A stretch of DNA of 64,000 bases from positions 1 through 64,000 of the forward strand of contig CASFTJ010000002.1 of the NCBI GenBank assembly GCA_949297715.1, in the 5' to 3' direction. This document shows, one piece after another, positions 9,971 through 46,070 of the stretch. The stretch is from an uncultured bacterium. Lineage in GTDB: Bacteria; Cyanobacteriota; Vampirovibrionia; Gastranaerophilales; Gastranaerophilaceae. The notes under the pieces were generated by a model, which saw only the letters and a list, made by a program, of their open reading frames with translations, was not told where the DNA came from and made no database searches. Position numbers and translations under genes: made by a program. Position 1 is the stretch's first letter; each line of letters starts with the position of its first letter.

Positions 9971-11539
9971 ATGGGCATGGCAGCATCACAGGCAAGATAT
10001 TTAGGCTTGACCGCAAGGAAAACCAACGTTGAATATGAAGGACAACAAATAAACCAGGCTCGTACGGCTTTAGCAAACCAGAGTGCAAATACATTTAATG
10101 AACTTTTGGCGCTGGAAGTTCCGACAGCCCCGAGTACGCAGGATTATACGACAACGCAATATTCTTATGAAGACGGAACTGTGGCTGAAACAATTACAGA
10201 AATGACACCATTGGAAAATGATCCTGATGGCTACAACTATTTGGTTACTCATTATCATTATTCAGATGTTTTTACTGGTATTGAAAACATCAAACGTAAT
10301 CCTCAGGTTTACGTAAGTGACAGAATAGAAAAGAATGAAGTTGATAAAAATAAAGTAGGAAGTAAAACGGACGAAGTAACAGGTGCAACTACATACACAG
10401 TAAGAGGATATGAATGCAAGGCTTATGATGAAACAGATCCGGCACAAAAGGATTTATTTGATACCTTATCAAGCAGCTATACTGCGTTACAGGAAGCCGA
10501 TCCGACAGATTTAATGACATATACTGATTCGGGCGGTAAACTTCATATTGTATTAAATAGTGAATTGGAAGGTGCTTTAAAAGGCGAAAGCCCGGCAAAT
10601 GACTATTATATGAGCGGATCAAGAGCTGCAGTAATGGAAATAGAGGCAAACCCGATAGGTATAGCTTCAAATCCAGAAACTGGTGAAACTTCTTATACCG
10701 TAAACGGTTTTGAATGTACAAAATATGATGAAACAAATGAATCAATGAAGATAGCATTTGACAAGGCAGTTGCTCAAAATGCGGAATTGGGTAAATTGGA
10801 TCCGAATAGCATTTATATGTATACTGACGATAATGCTGCCGTACATTTTATATCTCAAAATGATATAAACGGTGTTATTTCAGGTGATGCCAATGCGACT
10901 GATTATTCTGTTGCAACAGGTGTTCCGACGATGCTTGGTAATATTGAACTTTCAATATATGATCCGACAGATAAAGAACAAAAAGAACAGTATGAACAGA
11001 TTTTGAAAGACTGGCCGGATTCAACTTTTGCAGCTTCTCCATCAACAATTTATACTTGGGAAAGTTCAGGTCAAAGGTATTTTGCGTGTTATGAAGATTT
11101 GATGGCATCTTGGAATGGAGCGATGAACCCTGCAATGCCTACTGAAAATCAACCTGAATTAAAATATTATTGTGCTCAGGATATTTCAACCAAAATTGAA
11201 AGAACAGAAAAAGCACTCATTGATTTTAACAGTGAAGGTCGTGCGGAATCCATCAGATATGAGAATTCATCAGCGGTTAGGACTTTAAAGACGGAAACAA
11301 TTACGGATGAAGCTGCATATGATGATGCTATGAATCAGTATTATTATGATCAGCAGGTTTATGAAAAGAAGATAGAAGATATTAACGCTAAAACTAAGAA
11401 AATTCAAGAACAGGACAGAACGCTTGAATTAAGGCTTAGACAGCTTGATACAGAGCAGGAAGCGCTTCAGACAGAAATGGAAGCTGTAGCGAAGGTTATT
11501 GAAAAGAATATCGAATCTACATTCAAAACATTCGAATAA
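9971..11539 (+). CDS. axial/secreted-type protein: conserved N- and C-terminal helices around a triplicated middle domain
   Basis: No known family is recognised. The 522-residue protein has no signal peptide. Its N-terminal helix (1-45, starting MGMAASQARYLGLTARK) matches the 108-residue protein at 12885 without gaps: R9, L13, K17, E21, Y22, Q25, I27, Q29, R31 and L34 are shared. The C-terminal about 65 residues are a coiled coil ending in a TEMEA...KNIESTF pattern, also shared with that protein. In between, YTV(R/N)G(Y/F)EC begins a repeat at residue 142 and again at 242 (period 100), with a degenerate third copy from about 326. Conserved terminal helices with a variable middle resemble flagellin, hook-associated and type III needle-complex proteins. 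An export operon lies 7 kb downstream. The role is inferred, not shown. Confidence 0.7.
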   Translation: MGMAASQARYLGLTARKTNVEYEGQQINQARTALANQSANTFNELLALEVPTAPSTQDYTTTQYSYEDGTVAETITEMTPLENDPDGYNYLVTHYHYSDVFTGIENIKRNPQVYVSDRIEKNEVDKNKVGSKTDEVTGATTYTVRGYECKAYDETDPAQKDLFDTLSSSYTALQEADPTDLMTYTDSGGKLHIVLNSELEGALKGESPANDYYMSGSRAAVMEIEANPIGIASNPETGETSYTVNGFECTKYDETNESMKIAFDKAVAQNAELGKLDPNSIYMYTDDNAAVHFISQNDINGVISGDANATDYSVATGVPTMLGNIELSIYDPTDKEQKEQYEQILKDWPDSTFAASPSTIYTWESSGQRYFACYEDLMASWNGAMNPAMPTENQPELKYYCAQDISTKIERTEKALIDFNSEGRAESIRYENSSAVRTLKTETITDEAAYDDAMNQYYYDQQVYEKKIEDINAKTKKIQEQDRTLELRLRQLDTEQEALQTEMEAVAKVIEKNIESTFKTFE

Positions 11540-11589
11540 TAGTTGTAATATTTTTGCAATTATATTGGAGCAGGTACAAAGAGGTAAAA

Positions 11590-12411
11590 ATGGCATACAA
11601 AAACGACAGTTATTTAGTAATAGCAAACAAATTCGGCTCTGCAAGCGGGGATGCCAAAGCACAGCTTTTTGAAACTTATGACAAATTGCGAGATTTAACG
11701 GTATCAGGAAGTGGTTCAGGAACTGGTTTTGAAATGACCGGAAGTTTTTTATACAGAATGGCAAGTTTGTTGGCGCCATCATCTTTTGCTAATGTTTTTG
11801 GTGCTTCAGAAGTTATGAATATTCCGGGAACCTCTTATGCTTCACAGTTTACGGGCAATTCTGCATTTGGTATTGATTCATTGTATAATTATTCAGGATT
11901 TCCCGGTGGTGGTGCCGCTCCTATATCTTGGGGATTAGACGGGTATGCAACAGGCGGTGCGGCTTCGATTGTTTCCGGCTGGGGAAGTGACAGCGGTGTT
12001 GCAACTGGTTACGCATCGGGTATTGGCGGAATTGCCGATATCGCAAGCGCTGCGGCTTACGGTGTCGGTACTGCTAACGGTTTTGGTATGGCTGCTCGTA
12101 ATATTGTTCTTCCGATTGCAGGTGTAATTTCAGGTTGGGGCGGTATTATGCAGGCAGCAGCACCTTATCTTGGCGAATACGGGCTTCCGGCTTTAGTTAT
12201 GGGTAACTTGATGCAAGGTACAACTTCAGCCGCTCTTGCAGCTTATCAAAATGTTACGGGTAATATTACAGCAAACGCTGATGTTATGCTTTCAAATAAA
12301 GTTCGTAATATTGAAACTGTTTGCAAAATGCTGGATACTCAAGGGGATGTTGTTAAAAAGATGCTTAAAGAGTCTATTGACGGCGATAGTAAAGCTATTC
12401 AAAACCTCTAA
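11590..12411 (+). CDS. glycine/alanine-rich hypothetical protein
   Basis: The start at 11590 is preferred over an in-frame ATG at 11554 because AGAGG precedes it at normal spacing. The 273-residue protein has a short helical N-terminus and a long Gly-, Ala- and Ser-rich middle (about 40-200) with weakly hydrophobic stretches. A helical C-terminal 50 residues contain NKVRNIETVCKMLDTQGDVV. There is no Sec signal peptide. It lies 50 nt after the 522-residue protein on the same strand, so cotranscription is likely. The composition recalls secreted translocator or filament proteins, but no family is recognised. Confidence 0.65.
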   Translation: MAYKNDSYLVIANKFGSASGDAKAQLFETYDKLRDLTVSGSGSGTGFEMTGSFLYRMASLLAPSSFANVFGASEVMNIPGTSYASQFTGNSAFGIDSLYNYSGFPGGGAAPISWGLDGYATGGAASIVSGWGSDSGVATGYASGIGGIADIASAAAYGVGTANGFGMAARNIVLPIAGVISGWGGIMQAAAPYLGEYGLPALVMGNLMQGTTSAALAAYQNVTGNITANADVMLSNKVRNIETVCKMLDTQGDVVKKMLKESIDGDSKAIQNL

Positions 12412-12425
12412 TTTAATTGTAAATT

Positions 12426-12454
12426 TTGCTTAAAATACCCTAAAGTTTTATTAT
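12426..12454 (+). promoter_or_regulatory. probable promoter for the two small coiled-coil genes
   Basis: TTGCTT, a 17-nt spacer, then TATTAT, beginning 14 nt after the preceding stop codon. A transcript from here would carry a leader of about 140 nt before the gene at 12600. Confidence 0.45.
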
Positions 12455-12599
12455 TCTTTGCCGATAAATACCTTGTAATGACACAAAGTATGAGTGGACT
12501 TGCAACGTTAAGACATGTTAAGAGAATCTGAAAAACATGGCAATTTCAGTATTTTAAATGTTTTTATATAGTTGTAGGTCTAAAGTGTAAAGGATTAAT

Positions 12600-12872
12600 A
12601 TGATTCGTGATACTTTAGAGATGAATATAAAGCGGTTTTTAGACTTTGCGATATATTCAAAGAACTTCCTGATAAGGAAGAACCCGATAAAAGCGTTGAT
12701 AAATTCGTTTGTAGATGGTTTAAAAGATTTTCTAACAATGAACAAGAAAAGAAAAATGGCACAATACAGATTGAATTATCATATGCATCAGTTTAGAAAG
12801 ATGGAACAGTTGATTGCAGAAAACAATCAGCACACCTTTTTAAAAGGCAACAATCTTAACGAAACCAGATAA
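12600..12872 (+). CDS. small basic helical hypothetical protein
   Basis: The 90-residue Lys/Arg-rich protein has two predicted helical parts: residues 1-45 with amphipathic FLDFAIYSKNFLIRKNPIKAL, and 46-90 with Met, Gln and His. AAAGGA lies 5 nt before the ATG. An internal ATG at residue 47 is possible but lacks a clear ribosome site. It ends 12 nt before the 108-residue coiled-coil gene, so the two are probably cotranscribed. There is no recognised family. A small export chaperone for its neighbour is one possibility, from size and context only. Confidence 0.55.
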   Translation: MIRDTLEMNIKRFLDFAIYSKNFLIRKNPIKALINSFVDGLKDFLTMNKKRKMAQYRLNYHMHQFRKMEQLIAENNQHTFLKGNNLNETR

Positions 12873-12884
12873 AGGAACGGAAAA

Positions 12885-13211
12885 ATGGGTGTCATTACAG
12901 ATTCCATAAGAATGCAGTACTTGAATAATCAAAAGCTGGATTTGGAATACAAAATTCAGTTGATAACTCAATCAAGAATGGGTTTAACTCAAGCTGCAAG
13001 TGATTTGATGCAAGTAGGCACCGATTATTCACCTGATTCTCCGGTAGTAAAGCAGTTAAACCAGCGTCAGGCAAAACTGAAAGTATTAGAGCAAAAATTA
13101 GAGCAACAAATGATTCAATACCAAACAAGACTGCAAATGGTAACTACAGAACTTGAAGCTTGTCGTGGAAGATTATACGGTAACATAGGCAAAGCATTCT
13201 CTTATAACTAA
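12885..13211 (+). CDS. minimal member of the axial-type coiled-coil family
   Basis: The 108 residues consist only of the two ends of the 522-residue protein at 9971. The N-terminal 40 residues align without gaps (R9, L13, K17, E21-Y22, Q25, I27, Q29, R31, L34 identical). The C-terminal coiled coil ends in TELEACRGRLYGNIGKAF, against TEMEA...KNIESTF in the long protein. A 15-residue Pro/Asp/Ser linker (TDYSPDSPVV) replaces the 400-residue middle. This short two-helix hairpin with no signal peptide is like needle, rod or filament subunits exported by type III machines. The function is inferred from architecture and location only. Confidence 0.75.
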   Translation: MGVITDSIRMQYLNNQKLDLEYKIQLITQSRMGLTQAASDLMQVGTDYSPDSPVVKQLNQRQAKLKVLEQKLEQQMIQYQTRLQMVTTELEACRGRLYGNIGKAFSYN

Positions 13212-13233: not shown

Positions 13234-13869
13234 TTAATTTCCTGCCTGAATAAATAAGCTTATGATATCGTTAAGCATTGAATATTGACGATGAATTTTT
13301 TGAGTTTGATTTTCAAGAAGTCCGATTTGTTTTCTGCATTCTGCGATACTGTTTTGGCATTCACGTGCAGAGGCGTTAAGGTTTTCTTGAACAGCCTGAG
13401 CTTCTTGTAAAACACTCTTCATTGAAATTCCAAGAGCTTCCATAGTTTGCTTAATAATTTGTGCTCCTGTTTGTTTAGAAACATTAGACGGGATTTTTGC
13501 AATCAATTGTCTTAATACTTCAACATTTGCCGGGAGTTCAAATACTTCAGAATTACCTGTAAAAGTTTCGTTACTAATCGGGCTTGGAGCCTGTTGTTTT
13601 TCGGGAATTGTCCCGAAGTTATATGTGGTTTTGGTTGGAATAGACATAAAATCATTTGAGGTTTCAATATTATTTTTTTGACCTTGCGCGCCATCCTGTA
13701 GAAAGTCAAACGGCGGCATCGGCTCATTATAAACAGGTTCTTCAATGTTTTTTGTTTGAATAGAAACATCTTCTACTGTTTCCTGTGGCATAATTTCGAC
13801 ATCTGTCTGTTTTTTTAGTGCATCAACTATTTTTTTCCCGACACCTTCGGTCATTCTATTATTTACCAT
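13234..13869 (-). CDS. coiled-coil hypothetical protein, cytoplasmic
   Basis: The start at 13869 is chosen because TTGAGGGA precedes it and because the predicted transcript start (about 13896) lies downstream of the alternative ATG at 13920. The 211 residues divide into a low-complexity acidic N-terminal half and an ordered C-terminal 100 residues: VEVLRQLIAKIPSNVSKQTG, then AQIIKQTMEALGISMKSVLQ, then a coiled coil with conserved Cys/Gln and a hydrophobic end (LNDIISLFIQAG). The SKQTGAQIIKQTMEALG stretch looks conserved in style, but I cannot assign a family. It is convergent with the axial-type cluster, 22 nt apart. Confidence 0.6.
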   Translation of the reverse strand: MVNNRMTEGVGKKIVDALKKQTDVEIMPQETVEDVSIQTKNIEEPVYNEPMPPFDFLQDGAQGQKNNIETSNDFMSIPTKTTYNFGTIPEKQQAPSPISNETFTGNSEVFELPANVEVLRQLIAKIPSNVSKQTGAQIIKQTMEALGISMKSVLQEAQAVQENLNASARECQNSIAECRKQIGLLENQTQKIHRQYSMLNDIISLFIQAGN

Positions 13870-13902
13870 TTTTTCCCTCAAATTATTCTTATAACTACCA
13901 GA

Positions 13903-13931
13903 ATTATACAAAGGACACAAATATATTTCAA
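13903..13931 (-). promoter_or_regulatory. sigma70-type promoter for the coiled-coil gene at 13234
   Basis: On the - strand TTGAAA, a 17-nt spacer, then TATAAT. The predicted start near 13896 gives a 27-nt leader and supports the translational start at 13869. Confidence 0.65.
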
Positions 13932-18168: not shown

Positions 18169-18516
18169 ATGGAATACAATGCAGGATGGATGCCTAAATA
18201 TGATTTGGAAGCCCGAATACAGCACACAAAGCTGGACAGCGGGATTTACGGAATGGAACCTGCAAGGTTACGGAGAGTGGAAACGCCGGCAACAGGTGAT
18301 TTCAAGGCGGTATTTTCGGGGCTTGTAGAGAATCTGAATGCAGAGTTGAATGCTCCCGACAACCTTTTGAAAGATGTAATGAGCGGGAATAACAACATAG
18401 ATATTCATGATGTTATGACAGCGATGGCAAAATCGGAAATCAGCGTAAACGTAGCGACACAGATAACGGGAAAAGTCATACAAGCGTATGATAAAGTAAT
18501 GCAGATTCAGGTGTAG
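18169..18516 (+). CDS. fliE: flagellar hook-basal body protein FliE
   Basis: FliE joins the MS ring to the rod of the flagellar basal body. The 115-residue protein ends in the characteristic FliE helix pair: IDIHDVMTAMAKSEISVNVA, then TQITGKVIQAYDKVMQIQV, closely matching the family's LHDVMIAMEKA...RNKLVEAYQEIMRMQV. The first 60 residues are poorly conserved, as usual. It heads a run of export genes and is followed after 67 nt by fliF. GAAAGGCAGGG precedes the start. Confidence 0.9.
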   Translation: MEYNAGWMPKYDLEARIQHTKLDSGIYGMEPARLRRVETPATGDFKAVFSGLVENLNAELNAPDNLLKDVMSGNNNIDIHDVMTAMAKSEISVNVATQITGKVIQAYDKVMQIQV

Positions 18517-18583: not shown

Positions 18584-20230
18584 ATGGACTTTCAAAAATT
18601 ACTTGAGAATAAGATATTATTATACGGTGTGATAGCTGCAGCCGTAATAATTGTTATTGCGATTATATCAATAGGCGTAATAGCGGGTAATGGGAAGAAC
18701 AGTAAAGGAGCAGCAAGAGTTGTCAGCGAAAAAGTAATAAAAGAGCCTTTAGATCTTTTGCAGACGGATAATTTGGGTAAAGCGATAGAAATACAGGCAC
18801 TTTTGGCAAGAGAAGGCATTGTTGCAAGCCGTAAAGAAAACGGAACAAAATCGGTAATATTTTTGAAAGAATACACTCTAACCCAAAGAGATCAGGCGCT
18901 TTTAGCGATAGTAAAAAGCGGTTTAATGGACCAAAATGTCGGGCTTGAAATTTTTGACAAGGGTGATTTTACATCAACCAAAGAAGATAAAAAGATAAGA
19001 TTAGCAAGGGCAATAAACGGAGAATTGTCAAGACTTATAAGAAAGATTCCCCCGATAGAGAATGCATCGGTATTTATTTCAATACCGGAAGAATCAATGT
19101 TTACTTCAATGCAGAAGCCTGTAACAGCGACTGTACAGGTTTCGATACCGGCAGGAGATAAACTTGATCCTTTAAAAGTTAAAGCGATAACTAACCTTCT
19201 GTTAGGAAGCGTAAGCGGGCTTGTTGCGGATAATGTTTCTATTACAGATACAAACGGTAACGTTTATTCAAGCATGATAGATGCAGATGATGAGATGTTG
19301 TCTAAGCTTCAGGAAAATGACAAATACATGCAGCAAAAAGTTTCAAGGCAGCTAGACAGATTAATAGGTGCCGGAAACTATACAGCAACAGTAAGCACAT
19401 ATCTTCGTCAGGTTCCTATGGAAAGGACAAGGATTGAATATGATCCGAATAAAAAAGCTTCAGTTTCGGAGCAGTCATTTACGGAAGGTTTAGGCGATCA
19501 GACTCGTGACAGCAATAAAAACCCGAATGCAGTAAGTGTTTATATTCCAAACGGGATAGCGGCAGGCGGACAGAATTCAAGTCAAGACAGAAGTTATAGC
19601 CGTTCCGCTACAGAAACACAGTATGGTGTTACAAAAACCCAGACAAATGAATATTTGAAGCCAGGAGTTGTAGAAGAAATTTCGATTGCCGTAACGATGG
19701 AAAAAACAGCGATTCCTGCAAATACAACGGTAGAAGAATTAAAAGAATTAATTGCGACAACGGCAAGCCCCAAAGCTTTACCGGAAAACGTAACGATAGC
19801 ATTTTCAGATACATCAGAGCTTAACCTTGCAGGCGACAGACAGGCAAATCTTCCGAAACCTGATGAAAGTGGCAATCCATGGTGGATTACGATTGCACTA
19901 TGCGTAATCGGTTTAATAGGTGTTTCAAGGGTTGTTCACAGCAAGTTGAGAAAAGCTCAGGAAGAACACGAAAAAGAAGTTGCGATGCTACGACAAAAAG
20001 AAGCTGAACAAGACAGATTAATTCAAGATATGAACACAAGAGCAGCGCAGTTGACGGAAAGACAATCAGAACTTGCTCAAGGCTTGTTGGAAGCACAACA
20101 GAGAGAATATCTTGCACTTCATACGACGGATGATTTGGTTAATACTCTTGCAAATATGTCTGCAAATATATCCGAGTCTGATGAAAAAGATGCAGCAGAT
20201 AAGATTAAGAGCTGGATAGAAGAGACATAG
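18584..20230 (+). CDS. fliF: flagellar MS-ring protein FliF
   Basis: The protein forms the inner-membrane MS ring that houses the export gate. The 548 residues show an N-terminal membrane segment (about 12-33), then ring-building motifs typical of FliF: EIQALLAREGI, QRDQALLAIVKSGLMD, RLARAINGELSRLIRKIP and ENASVFISIPE. A second membrane segment lies near 428-446 (WWITIALCVIGLIGV). A long cytoplasmic coiled coil ends in KDAADKIKSWIEE, like the FliG-binding tail of flagellar FliF. There is no lipobox, so it is flagellar-type rather than an injectisome SctJ. The coiled coil between membrane and tail is longer than usual. Confidence 0.92.
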   Translation: MDFQKLLENKILLYGVIAAAVIIVIAIISIGVIAGNGKNSKGAARVVSEKVIKEPLDLLQTDNLGKAIEIQALLAREGIVASRKENGTKSVIFLKEYTLTQRDQALLAIVKSGLMDQNVGLEIFDKGDFTSTKEDKKIRLARAINGELSRLIRKIPPIENASVFISIPEESMFTSMQKPVTATVQVSIPAGDKLDPLKVKAITNLLLGSVSGLVADNVSITDTNGNVYSSMIDADDEMLSKLQENDKYMQQKVSRQLDRLIGAGNYTATVSTYLRQVPMERTRIEYDPNKKASVSEQSFTEGLGDQTRDSNKNPNAVSVYIPNGIAAGGQNSSQDRSYSRSATETQYGVTKTQTNEYLKPGVVEEISIAVTMEKTAIPANTTVEELKELIATTASPKALPENVTIAFSDTSELNLAGDRQANLPKPDESGNPWWITIALCVIGLIGVSRVVHSKLRKAQEEHEKEVAMLRQKEAEQDRLIQDMNTRAAQLTERQSELAQGLLEAQQREYLALHTTDDLVNTLANMSANISESDEKDAADKIKSWIEET

Positions 20231-20267: not shown

Positions 20268-21329
20268 ATGGCAATAAAAGGGTTTGATTACGCAGAATTT
20301 GCAAAAAATCTGACAGCGCAGGCAAAAGATATAGTGCCTGCAGACTTTAATGAAAATCAAAAACAGTTTGTCATCAATACCTTATTTAATTTATCCAGTA
20401 TGGCAGGAAAGGCACTTGCCGAAGATAAAGAAAGTAATTTTAATGCTGAACAGGCGATGCTTATCACGCAGATAATTGCGGAATGGTCATTCCATAAATC
20501 CGTAGACCTTATAAGATCGGGTATTCCGCAGCAATACTGGGATCCTATAATGCAAAAGATTGCATATACGATTTTTGAAATAGCACAGCAGACTTTCAGA
20601 CAAAATCTTCCTCAGGATCAAATATTGCAGCTTATAGAGCACCACGTCAAGAAAGCTTATGATGAGGCGATACAAGAACTAAAAGACAGGAATTTAATTT
20701 CAGAAGCTTTGATGGAGCAGGCCGTAAAGCAGTCGAACATAGACACAATGATGCAGCAAATGCAGGATGAACAACAAGCTCCTCCCCAAGCACAAGCTCC
20801 AGCATCCCCCACACCTCCACCGGCAAAACCCGTATCAACACGCAATACATCTCCTGTTCCGGCAAAAGGCGGTGCGCCTTCAGCTCCTGTTGATATGTCT
20901 AAGCCTATCGAAAAATACAAACCTCCGAAACTTCTTAAACTTGTTGCGGTAGCGTTGCTGCTTAAACGAGTAACTGATGACAGGGTTCAGTCAATATTGA
21001 ATCATTTTGAACAGGATGATGCCGGAACTGTTTTAAGATACATGTATGTGGACAATTTAGAAGAAAAAGTTGATCCGTCCGTAACAATGCGAGTGCTTGA
21101 GGATATAGGCAAAAATCTTCCGTCCGCAACAGAAGTTAATACAAATTTACTTGTCGAAAGAGTAAAAGCAACAGCTGCAATGATGGACAAGCAGAAGCTG
21201 GAATCAATGGTACAGCTTGAAAGACCGAATGTTCGCAGATTTGTTTTTAATGCTATGGAAGGTGAATTTTATAAAATGTCACCACGAGTTGCGGCAGTTA
21301 TTGCCTCGCATCTTGAACATAGTGTATAA
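20268..21329 (+). CDS. FliG-like protein with a novel N-terminal domain
   Basis: The gene sits where fliG is expected, between fliF and fliH. The C-terminal about 110 residues (LNHFEQDDAGTVLRYMYVDN through NVRRFVFNAMEGEFYKMSPR) are compatible with a very divergent helical FliG-type domain, although the classic FliG motifs are weak. Residues 1-170 are something else. They match the membrane protein at 48693 (IIAEWSFHKSVDLIRSGIP against VIAEWVFHKTVDLIASGVP, and similar spacing of FDY, FA, AG and NLI motifs). A Pro/Gln/Ala linker (about 170-215) joins the parts. The FliG call rests on position plus weak pattern. The domain may replace FliG-N as the FliF adaptor. Confidence 0.65.
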   Translation: MAIKGFDYAEFAKNLTAQAKDIVPADFNENQKQFVINTLFNLSSMAGKALAEDKESNFNAEQAMLITQIIAEWSFHKSVDLIRSGIPQQYWDPIMQKIAYTIFEIAQQTFRQNLPQDQILQLIEHHVKKAYDEAIQELKDRNLISEALMEQAVKQSNIDTMMQQMQDEQQAPPQAQAPASPTPPPAKPVSTRNTSPVPAKGGAPSAPVDMSKPIEKYKPPKLLKLVAVALLLKRVTDDRVQSILNHFEQDDAGTVLRYMYVDNLEEKVDPSVTMRVLEDIGKNLPSATEVNTNLLVERVKATAAMMDKQKLESMVQLERPNVRRFVFNAMEGEFYKMSPRVAAVIASHLEHSV

Positions 21330-21341
21330 TGAAATTGAATC

Positions 21342-22172
21342 ATGATTATCAAAAAGAAAAGAACCGGAAAACCGAAGATTTCCAAACCGGAAATTATTAA
21401 GGTTCAGTCGGAAGCGGGGAATTTGGGATATGAAACGCTTCAGGAAAATGAGCCTGATTTTGGCATGCCGGATTTAGAAAATGTAAATATTGATAATTCA
21501 CAGTCGGAATATGAAGAGTTAGAAGCAGAAGTTGAACAGCCTCAAGAAGAAGCACAGGAACCAGAAGAAATTGATTTGTTTAATTTAGATAACATAGATT
21601 TTTCTCAGCGTCAGGAAAGGCGTCGTGGCGATCGCAGACGCGGTTTCAGGCGTGTAGATGAGCGGAATTTGATTTCCCGTGCACGAGAAGAAGCAGATAG
21701 TATTAGAGAAGCTGCCGCTAAAGAAGGTTATCAGGAAGGTTTAAATCAGTCTTCAGAGGATATTGCGCAGGTTAGAGAGGCTTTCAAAGATTTTTTGAGT
21801 GCTCCGCAGGAGGTTTTTGAATATATTGCGCCTGATATTTTGGAGATAAGTATTGATATAGCTCAAAAAATAATTAAAAATGAAGTAACTCAAAATCCTC
21901 AGATTGTGTTATCCAAAATAACGGAAATCCTGAAAACACTATCGAAAGAGGAACCAAAAGTTACGATAAGGGTAAATCCGTCGCAGGTAAGTATTGCAAA
22001 ACAGGGGATTCCGGAAATGCTTAATGAGGCGGGCTTAGAAACGAAGATTGTCATATTGCCTGATGAAGAAGTGTCAGAAGGCGGGTGTATAGTTTCAACC
22101 AATAATGGTGTAATAGATGCGACAATAGAAAGTCAAATCGCAATAGTTATGGAGGCTCTTAAAGAAGTTTAA
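21342..22172 (+). CDS. fliH: flagellar assembly protein FliH / SctL-like stator
   Basis: FliH/SctL proteins hold the export ATPase at the gate. Of 276 residues, the first 110 are acidic and low-complexity, ending in an Arg-rich patch (ERRRGDRRRGFRR). Residues about 115-170 form the coiled coil AREEADSIREAAAKEGYQEG, with the family's EGxxxG-like spacing. The C-terminal 100 residues match FliH/SctL: ISIDIAQKIIKNEVTQNPQI, VTIRVNPSQVSIA, ILPDEEVSEGGCIVSTNNGVIDATIESQ. It starts 12 nt after the FliG-like gene and its stop codon shares one base with the flhA start (TAATG), so translation is coupled. Confidence 0.88.
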   Translation: MIIKKKRTGKPKISKPEIIKVQSEAGNLGYETLQENEPDFGMPDLENVNIDNSQSEYEELEAEVEQPQEEAQEPEEIDLFNLDNIDFSQRQERRRGDRRRGFRRVDERNLISRAREEADSIREAAAKEGYQEGLNQSSEDIAQVREAFKDFLSAPQEVFEYIAPDILEISIDIAQKIIKNEVTQNPQIVLSKITEILKTLSKEEPKVTIRVNPSQVSIAKQGIPEMLNEAGLETKIVILPDEEVSEGGCIVSTNNGVIDATIESQIAIVMEALKEV

Positions 22173-24277
22173 TGGCAGCACAAGGATCAGCAGGGGGTAC
22201 AAATTTAAGTGAAGTTGCAATGGCGATATTCGTCTTGCTTCTTATTGTCTTGTTGTTAGTCGAATTGCCTAATTGTGTTGTCAACTTTTCAATATGTTTA
22301 AATATAACTCTTGGTGTTATATTGCTGATGATATCGTTGTATGTAAAGAAAACTTTGGAACTTGCGGCATTTCCGTCTATAATCCTTATTGGTACAATGT
22401 TTCGACTTGTACTTTCAATCGCATCAACAAGGTTAATTCTTTCAAAAGGTGAGGCGGGAGAAGTTATTCACGCATTCGGAACGTTCGTAACCGGCGGTAA
22501 TATGGTTGTCGGCGGCGTAATCTTCCTTATCATAACGGTTGTACAGTTTATGGTAATCACAAAAGGTGCCGAACGTATCGCTGAAGTTTCTGCAAGGTTT
22601 GCCTTGGATGCTATGCCAGGTAAACAGATGACGATTGACGCCGATTTTAACGCAGGGTTAATTTCACCTGAAGAAGCGACTCAAAGACGTGAAGATTTGC
22701 AGAGAGAATCAAACTTGTTCGGTTCAATGGATGGTGCGATGAAGTTCGTAAAAGGGGATACTATAGCAGGTATTATCATCGTACTTATCAACATTATCGG
22801 CGGTTTGTGCGTCGGTTGTTTAATGAATCAAATGCCTATAGCAGATGCTGTTAACCAATATACAATCTTAACCATAGGTGACGGTCTGGCATCTCAGGTG
22901 CCGTCTTTGTTGATGTCAATTGCAGCCGGTATCTTTATGACACGTGCTTCTGCTGCTAATTCATTGGGTTCTGATGTTACGGCTGAAATTAAAAGTAAAC
23001 CTAATGCTCTGTTTTTGTCGGCAGGGTTCTTACTTTTATTGGCATTTACTGGGCATACATGGTTTTGGGAAGGGACTGGGCTTCCGTTTTTACCGTTTTT
23101 CTTATTTGCAATCGGACTTGGTATTACCGGATTTTCAACCCTTATCAATGCAGATGTTCAATCTCAATTAGGGCAGTTGGAAAGCGTTAGACAAAATATG
23201 CAGGATTTGGTTAACCCGAACAGAATGTATGAGCGTTTGGGGGTTGATATTTTAAGTCTTCAGGTTGGATCAAACCTGCTTGTAATTGCCGATCCTGATC
23301 AGGAAGGTCAATTGCTTGCTAAAATTGCTGCTCTTCGTCAAAGGGTTACGGATGAACTCGGTTATATTTTGCCGAACATAAGAATTATGGATTCATCGGC
23401 TCTTGATGCTAACGAGTATATGATTCAAATTCGCGGTAATACTGTCGATACAGGGTATGTGTATCCCGGAAGGCTTATGGTTATTGCTGATCAGTGGGAT
23501 GCTATAAAGAAGGAAGTTCCGCAGGATGCGATAATCGGTATTGATCCGACTTACCAAACTCAAGCATATTGGATTACGCCGGACGATGCCAAAACCGCAA
23601 GATCAGTGACGGCATTTGATTCGACTGACGTTATTGTAACTCACCTTCAGGAATGCGTAAGAAAACATGTTGATGAAGTTATGACAAAAACCGATGTGTT
23701 GAAGCTTATGGAACTTGTACGTTCTCAAGATCCGACACTTGTTAATGACCTTGTTCCGACAATTATTTCCACAAGTGATTTGAGAAAGATTTTTGTTAAC
23801 TTAATCAGAGAAAAAGTTTCAATAAAGGATATTATTTTTGTATTTGAAAGACTTTGCGATTATGCAAGATTTTCAAAAGAACCGGATATTTTGTCGGAAC
23901 GTTTAAGAGCTGCTTTAGGGCGCCAGATTTGTCTTGCAAACGTTGAAGATGACAAAGTTTTATATGCACTTACACTTTCTCCTGAGTGGGAAAAAACTCT
24001 GGATGACAGTTGTCAGAGAACGGAGCTTGGAACAATGTTCCTTTTAAATCCTATGCAGGTGCAGGAATTGATTGAAACTACCGCTTCTACGATGGTTCGT
24101 GCGCATCAGGCATGCGGTAGAAATCCTGTTGTTTTGTGCTCACCAAGAATAAGGCTTCCTCTTTATCAGCTTTTGGAACGTCACATTCCGACTGTTGTTG
24201 TAATTTCTTATTCTGAACTTATTACGGATATTAAGGTTGAGGCGGTTGATACAATTGGCGAAAGTTACGCTATGTAG
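22172..24277 (+). CDS. flhA: flagellar/type III export gate protein FlhA
   Basis: FlhA is the large export-gate subunit. The N-terminal half (about 1-320) has eight likely membrane segments and the hallmark cytoplasmic loop FALDAMPGKQMTIDADFNAG with SMDGAMKFVKGDTIAGIIIV. The C-terminal 350 residues are the substrate- and chaperone-binding domain (YVYPGRLMVIADQWD, VLKLMELVRSQDPTLVNDLVP, AHQACGRNPVVLCSPRIRLP). The 701-residue length fits FlhA. The coupled start overlaps the fliH stop. Homology alone does not separate FlhA from SctV, but the FliE/FliF neighbours favour a flagellar-lineage system. Confidence 0.95.
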   Translation: MAAQGSAGGTNLSEVAMAIFVLLLIVLLLVELPNCVVNFSICLNITLGVILLMISLYVKKTLELAAFPSIILIGTMFRLVLSIASTRLILSKGEAGEVIHAFGTFVTGGNMVVGGVIFLIITVVQFMVITKGAERIAEVSARFALDAMPGKQMTIDADFNAGLISPEEATQRREDLQRESNLFGSMDGAMKFVKGDTIAGIIIVLINIIGGLCVGCLMNQMPIADAVNQYTILTIGDGLASQVPSLLMSIAAGIFMTRASAANSLGSDVTAEIKSKPNALFLSAGFLLLLAFTGHTWFWEGTGLPFLPFFLFAIGLGITGFSTLINADVQSQLGQLESVRQNMQDLVNPNRMYERLGVDILSLQVGSNLLVIADPDQEGQLLAKIAALRQRVTDELGYILPNIRIMDSSALDANEYMIQIRGNTVDTGYVYPGRLMVIADQWDAIKKEVPQDAIIGIDPTYQTQAYWITPDDAKTARSVTAFDSTDVIVTHLQECVRKHVDEVMTKTDVLKLMELVRSQDPTLVNDLVPTIISTSDLRKIFVNLIREKVSIKDIIFVFERLCDYARFSKEPDILSERLRAALGRQICLANVEDDKVLYALTLSPEWEKTLDDSCQRTELGTMFLLNPMQVQELIETTASTMVRAHQACGRNPVVLCSPRIRLPLYQLLERHIPTVVVISYSELITDIKVEAVDTIGESYAM

Positions 24278-45326: not shown

Positions 45327-45971
45327 TTATCTTGAAAATTTACTGATGTCTTCATCTATAAATTTTTTATTGTTGTTTTCTTCTGTTTTTATTATCTGTA
45401 TTCTGGTTTCGGCTTCCTTAATAGCCTGTTCTTTGGCTTCAATCCCATCCAGATTACCCGACTCAATGTCTTTCACTATTTCTGCTTGCAGACGATGAAT
45501 TTCTGCTTCTAATTTCTGTATACCTTCCGGTTTTGGGTTTTGCGCTTCTCCATTCTGCTTTGCATCTAATTCAGTTTCCATTTGCTGTTTTTTTAATTCG
45601 AGTTCTTTTGCTATTGCTTCAAGTTTTGGAGCTATGACTTTTTTTAATTTTTCTGTTTCTTTATTAATTATTGTTTTAAAATCTTCCGGGGTGATTGGAA
45701 TGTCTTTGTACATAAGTTCCATATGTTCACCAGGATTGTTATCATAGTATTTTTGTATATCCTTTGCTTTTTTCTCAAGTTTTGCTTTTTCATCATCAAT
45801 TTGATTTAAATCAGGCTGTTCTTCTGCTTTTTCTTCTTTATTGTAATAATTTTGAATGTCTTCATTAGTTTTTTGTTTTTCAAGTTTTTTCTTATCTTCT
45901 TCTGAAAGGTCTGTTCCATTAATAGTTATATCGTGCGGAAGCCCTGTGTCATTGATCTGATATTCACTCAT
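45327..45971 (-). CDS. charged coiled-coil hypothetical protein
   Basis: The 214-residue protein is dominated by Lys/Glu/Gln heptads (EEDKKKLEKQKTNEDIQNYY, KLEAIAKELELKKQQMETEL, LEAEIHRLQAEIVKDIESG). Two related segments, DIQNYYNKEEKAEEQPD and DIQKYYDNNPGEHMEL, suggest a short internal repeat. The first 20 residues (INDTGLPHDITINGTDL) are polar. There is no signal peptide, membrane segment or recognised family. Terminators on both sides make it a single-gene unit between hppA and the short coiled-coil gene. Confidence 0.55.
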   Translation of the reverse strand: MSEYQINDTGLPHDITINGTDLSEEDKKKLEKQKTNEDIQNYYNKEEKAEEQPDLNQIDDEKAKLEKKAKDIQKYYDNNPGEHMELMYKDIPITPEDFKTIINKETEKLKKVIAPKLEAIAKELELKKQQMETELDAKQNGEAQNPKPEGIQKLEAEIHRLQAEIVKDIESGNLDGIEAKEQAIKEAETRIQIIKTEENNNKKFIDEDISKFSR

Positions 45972-46070
45972 AAAAATTTTCTCCTTTTATTATCTACACA
46001 GAGGATGTATTCGGCAGAAAGAACTTATAACTTTAATTTTTTATTAATATGATACATAAATTTACAAATG

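Follow-up and report, generated by a model that had tools for sequence, protein, structure and literature searches.

We analyzed a window of 64,000 nucleotides from an uncultured bacterium of the Gastranaerophilaceae (Cyanobacteriota; Vampirovibrionia; Gastranaerophilales), covering positions 1 to 64,000 of contig CASFTJ010000002.1 in assembly GCA_949297715.1 (genome G000). Two of its genes, encoding proteins of 522 and 108 residues (A522 and D108), belong to an undescribed family of helical proteins and are located ahead of a gene cluster for a flagellum-derived export system, here termed W, with its own export gate, FlhA-W. The locus comprises the following features, including one small open reading frame (ORF):

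9971..11539, + strand: A522, the 522-residue long family member
11590..12411, + strand: B, 273 residues, Gly/Ala-rich, with hydrophobic segments and a conserved C-terminal end
12441..12467, + strand: σ28 (FliA)-type promoter, TAAAGTTT-N11-GCCGATAA, ahead of the C90-D108 operon
12600..12872, + strand: C90, a small ORF between the promoter and D108, without family match
12885..13211, + strand: D108, the 108-residue compact family member, a predicted two-helix hairpin (helices 3-45 and 53-105)

Homology, size, and distribution of the family

The first-pass annotation of this DNA had noted that the two proteins share N-terminal residues and C-terminal ends, and that the long one carries an insert. 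All of this was borne out, together with the coordinates. The first 45 residues align without gaps with 12 identities (M1, G2, R9, L13, K17, E21, Y22, Q25, I27, Q29, R31, and L34) and a BLOSUM62 score of 43, which none of 20,000 shuffles reached; the C termini align over 51 residues at 25% identity, and the insert of A522 amounts to about 400 residues. Single-sequence BLAST, run within a set of six proteins, gave marginal E-values of 3e-4 and 0.003. However, hhalign of the D108 profile (50 rows) with the joined N and C termini of the long forms gave 97.7% at E 2e-12, and with the 109-residue forms of other families 99.5% at E 8.7e-23, with 34% identity over 106 ungapped columns. The relation of A522 and D108 is secure because these profile comparisons support it, single sequences alone being thin evidence. 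Chance or mere coiled-coil likeness of the termini was ruled out by the shuffles and the profile comparisons. A522 and D108 look like two versions of one hairpin, the former with an insert and the latter compact.

The end helices of A522 (residues 2-46 and 447-521) enclose about 400 residues with three β-α repeats. Among 45 A522 orthologs, the frequency of the commonest residue per column averaged 0.96 at positions 1-46 and 0.91 at 447-522, compared with 0.52-0.80 in between; N- and C-terminal helices around a variable middle are also the hallmark of flagellins and other axial proteins. Ortholog length ranges from 323 to 599 residues, mostly because individual repeats are present or missing (the three have occupancies of 0.43, 0.77, and 1.0). 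The repeats include a sub-threshold match to ZinT (PF09223; E 4e-4, 20.7 bits versus a cut-off of 27) at residues 210-272, window positions 10598-10786.

The family had rightly been taken as undescribed. For the members tested, no model in Pfam, NCBIfam, or PHROGs scored above cut-off, and profile searches of PDB sequences found no relative. Neither A522 nor D108 matched Flagellin_N or other axial-protein families above cut-off, the flagellin model reaching D108 below threshold (E 0.08); needle families and solved needle chains were likewise not matched by sequence. Among the papers found by searches on Melainabacteria type III secretion and Vampirovibrionia flagella, no title describes the hairpin family or W as a separate system. 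Coordinates and a profile are now given for this family, which is unnamed in public libraries.

The pair singled out in the first-pass annotation is genuinely related but undercounts what is actually a multigene family. A522 had matches in all 117 Gastranaerophilaceae genomes searched and D108 in 111 genomes of the same family, usually with one ortholog per genome. G000 itself, in which paralogs were collected by position, carries eight complete long members (333-659 residues); five further 5' ends stop at contig ends, where a group of two and a group of three contigs each share an identical 5' coding piece, and three more contigs terminate in a family 3' end. The total is at least 13 long members plus D108. 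Since assemblies break at family genes, copy numbers in short-read assemblies are minima, and per-genome match counts are likewise lower bounds. G000 has eight contig ends that interrupt family genes, whose 5' or 3' DNA is identical (both ends of C3 and one each of C4, C8, C9, C14, C16, and C21). Gene conversion between paralogs is not claimed from these identical pieces, as whole genes may be near-identical repeats.

The profile count proposed in the first-pass annotation, made with the joined end helices, yielded matches in 164 of 240 genomes of the class; outside the class, other phylum members gave weak matches, none better than E 2.7e-4, which were taken as coiled-coil noise. The matches in families f4, f9, and f10 are complete 109-residue proteins without insert, numbering 1-7 per genome among the matches listed. 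Gene B comes after the hairpin gene in three f4 and f10 loci among those read, and B of the window is 40-44% identical to the gene adjoining the 109-residue hairpin gene in these families. The compact form is probably ancestral, and A522 would represent a 109-residue gene whose loop gained some 400 residues, if the change went in this direction.

It might be argued that the hairpins are cytoplasmic helpers, i.e., export chaperones or stalk-type coiled coils resembling FlgN, FliT, or FliJ, which are co-regulated with the export system and stay inside the cell. A length of about 109 residues, an all-helical build, and the multiple copies seen in f4, f9, and f10 genomes would suit such proteins, but large, variable, and partly β-rich inserts are unusual for chaperones, and no match to FlgN/FliT/FliJ-type families was found in Pfam or NCBIfam. 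We regard this explanation as unlikely.

Structure models and comparison with known systems

The AlphaFold model of D108 (predicted local distance difference test, pLDDT, 84.6) consists of helices 3-45 and 53-105. It superposes on antiparallel hairpins of solved proteins at 1.0-2.2 Å over about 100 residues, which argues that the two helices pair; a short two-helix hairpin is also the shape of the SctF needle subunit. The model of A522 (pLDDT 87.4; predicted template modeling score, pTM, 0.52) comprises helix 2-46, the β-α repeats, and helix 447-521. Pairing of N- with C-terminal helices, which had been anticipated for both proteins, is thus backed by the D108 model, whereas for A522 the prediction extends to the two helices as such. 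In a Foldseek search with A522, flagellar filament chains ranked first (best E 1.8e-4), and 14 of the first 20 rows were chains of flagellar structures. Judged from the model, A522 and these chains appear to have a like order of elements, which does not imply a common fold. Hydropathy analysis of A522 and D108 revealed neither a Sec-type N terminus nor a transmembrane stretch.

Like the flagellin and hook-associated axial proteins FliC, FlgL, FlgK, and FliD, the family combines constant helical ends with a variable inserted middle, lacks an evident Sec signal, has σ28-type promoters, and is multicopy, and chains of the flagellar filament top the structural ranking for A522. Unlike these proteins, it has no axial Pfam match, its end sequences are unrelated to theirs, the template modeling (TM) score is about 0.1, it is built on a single hairpin, and some of its members are compact and carry no insert.

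The needle and tip proteins of type III secretion systems (T3SS), SctF and SctA, offer a second comparison, since they too pair a small helical hairpin subunit with larger relatives carrying inserted domains. In T3SS tip proteins, domains are inserted between the hairpin helices. In contrast to these proteins, the family has no sequence match to SctF or SctA, FlhA-W is nearer to FlhA than to SctV, and nothing else injectisome-like was shown. Along these lines, D108 could be needle-like, A522 and its paralogs tip- or adhesin-like, B a pore-forming translocator, and W an injection-type system. The size and hairpin shape of D108 suit a needle subunit, its best structural neighbors include a T3SS translocator coiled coil (TM-score relative to the query, TMq, 0.86-0.87), and B, with its hydrophobic segments, is kept beside the hairpin gene across families. 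However, no Foldseek E-value of D108 is better than 0.06 and unrelated coiled coils reach equal scores, the sequences match neither needle nor translocator families, and the scores of FlhA-W argue against an injection-type W. Overall, this scenario seems unlikely.

The export system W and the absence of flagellin

An export machine had been assigned to the 18- to 24-kb region of the window, where we find the following genes:

18169..18516, + strand: FliE of W (PF02049, E 1.2e-17)
18584..20230, + strand: FliF of W, recognized by Pfam, below the curated FliF and SctJ cut-offs
20268..21329, + strand: FliG-position protein, without family match, presumably FliG from gene order
21342..22172, + strand: FliH of W (PF02108, E 1.2e-25)
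22172..24277, + strand: FlhA-W, the export gate, in a clade apart from flagellar FlhA

Pfam matches to FliE, FliF, FliH, and FlhA confirm an export machine, yet W is an old, distinct flagellum-derived export system and not an ordinary flagellum. FlhA-W scored 694.4 bits, below the FlhA cut-off of 772.1, and FliF scored 106.7, below 129.75. The injectisome models also stayed below their cut-offs (SctV, 583.1 versus 692.25 bits; SctJ, 50.8 versus 161.95 bits), and FlhA-W scored nearer to FlhA than to SctV. Full-length FlhA proteins from ten genomes fell into two kinds, F (E about 1e-260) and W (about 1e-215), which are 35-39% identical to each other, compared with 60-94% identity within W, and are separated by a fully supported branch. 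Four genomes (G118, G142, G123, and G005) carry both kinds, and the flagellar FlhA of these genomes does not group with FlhA-W, which forms its own clade. W thus resembles the flagellar export core in its homologous FliE, FliF, FliH, and FlhA and, in G142, in a cluster that includes FlgB-, FlgC-, FlgF-, and FlgG-like rod genes, but differs from it in FliF and FlhA scores below the curated cut-offs and in being kept in genomes without flagellin. This separate FlhA lineage has been kept across families of the class, and in other families it is found side by side with flagellar FlhA.

No Flagellin_N match was found in G000 or anywhere in genus g1, and by our own count of the listings 39 of the 143 genomes of the family have one. 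Flg_bb_rod gave two weak matches in G000 versus 4-8 in most flagellated relatives, and these counts suggest that G000 lacks hook genes. FliA is encoded in G000, with a match above cut-off (C1:184597-185259, E 2e-72); W and σ28 persist although flagellin is gone. Partial flagellar gene sets in Gastranaerophilales have been described and interpreted as coding for no functional flagellum (PMC4040986), and full sets are present in some members (PMC3787301).

G000 contains two further FlhA-like genes. The product of L247 (G000:C1:272995-274047; about 492 residues) matches only the cytoplasmic half of FlhA and has counterparts in G006, G073, G005, G045, and G252. That of L251/L255 (G000:C3:13307-14383; about 592 residues) covers FHIPEP positions 254-656, and its N terminus resembles the FliG-position protein of the window by eye. 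Both could be soluble substrate receptors.

σ28-type promoters, linkage, and a possible role in type III export

σ28-type sites, defined by the pattern TAAAG-N13..15-[AGT]CCG[AT] at most 180 bp from the gene start, precede 11 of 12 G000 paralogs compared with 3 of 239 other ORFs (p 9e-16). In other genera, the numbers are 9 of 18 paralogs and 2 of 676 ORFs (p 3e-14). The site at 12441, TAAAGTTT-N11-GCCGATAA, corresponds to the textbook FliA consensus, and a site of this form, with diverged spacers, lies within 700 nucleotides upstream of D108 in 67 of 76 loci. The σ28-type promoters before most paralogs and the consensus site ahead of the D108 operon are new here. Enrichment of these predicted sites and the encoded FliA would fit σ28-dependent transcription of the family. 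Similar sites precede the G000 ORFs L117, L126, L127, L132, L136, L137, L139, and L140.

By hand count, 30 genomes have the A522-D108 locus and flhA-W on one contig, and in these the locus lies 7-17 kb from flhA-W, near the fliE-fliF-fliH-flhA cluster, in line with the proposed neighborhood; in 22 other genomes the two are on different contigs. The linkage recurs in several genera. The family is essentially confined to genomes with an FHIPEP gene. Its occurrence where fliF/flhA are missing had been named as a sign against an export role; a family match without FHIPEP was seen in 1 of 164 genomes, at E 0.007, leaving aside two genomes without full-length flhA that are considered below.

We favor, with a probability of roughly 0.58, the reading that the flagellum-derived type III system W, kept despite the loss of flagellin, exports the members of the family without a Sec signal. 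The core would be an antiparallel two-helix hairpin of about 108 residues, as in D108 and the 109-residue forms elsewhere, and the loop between its helices would take inserts of roughly 200-550 residues, giving rise to A522 and its paralogs. The exporter would recognize the constant hairpin, which would stack outside the cell to form a rod, needle, or filament, with the inserts facing outward and diversifying. In flagellated bacteria, σ28 drives filament genes. Here, σ28 (FliA) would switch on most family genes and, as it does in flagella, couple their expression to a completed basal structure. More tentatively, we speculate that Gastranaerophilales possess an undescribed type III branch, derived from the flagellum, devoid of flagellin and apparently of a hook, in which σ28-driven hairpin proteins with exchangeable, fast-evolving inserts functionally replace flagellin. 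If true, common gut commensals would have a working export apparatus together with surface or secreted proteins of a new class, and W would exemplify how, in nature, filament proteins can be exchanged without loss of the export engine.

Several observations weigh against export by W. The σ28-like site of A522 itself is weak, and genome-wide the σ28-type pattern is no commoner than its reversed control (32 versus 33 sites), so only its placement before family genes is evidence, and a genome-wide σ28 regulon could not be derived from the motif alone. The TM-score of A522 to flagellins and the pTM of its model are too low to establish packing of its end helices. Families f5, f6, and f7 lack a clear family match despite having FHIPEP, and f4 and f9 possess a real flagellum beside the short forms, which could serve it. 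Finally, G045 and G252 have only partial FlhA-like genes, yet at least 13-14 family matches; the D108 search found none in G045 and no match of D108 strength in G252, which may reflect either co-loss or an assembly gap.

The many members retained in G045 and G252, like the unrelated G000 ORFs that also follow σ28-type sites, would fit a lineage-specific coiled-coil family that has no link to export and merely shares its regulation, for example, cell-envelope or intracellular proteins. Shared regulation only is difficult to reconcile with a linkage to flhA-W that recurs in several genera, and the axial-protein-like build of the family and its near-absence where FHIPEP is missing also speak against this alternative, which we consider improbable.

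Two loci of G118 (f4; one contig) were read from the sequence. One 109-residue hairpin gene is located near two flagellin-like ORFs (L103 3812-8718), and a second lies between a FliD-like gene and a flgB-flgC-fliE-fliF-type cluster (L102 2399-17001). In this genome, the short form may serve the flagellum.

Within the window, a 228-residue ORF on the minus strand (13234-13920), without family match above cut-off, is convergent with D108. Farther along, a σ28-type site at 46011-46035 on the minus strand lies 40 nucleotides before a Lys/Glu-rich ORF of 214 residues (45327-45971, minus strand).
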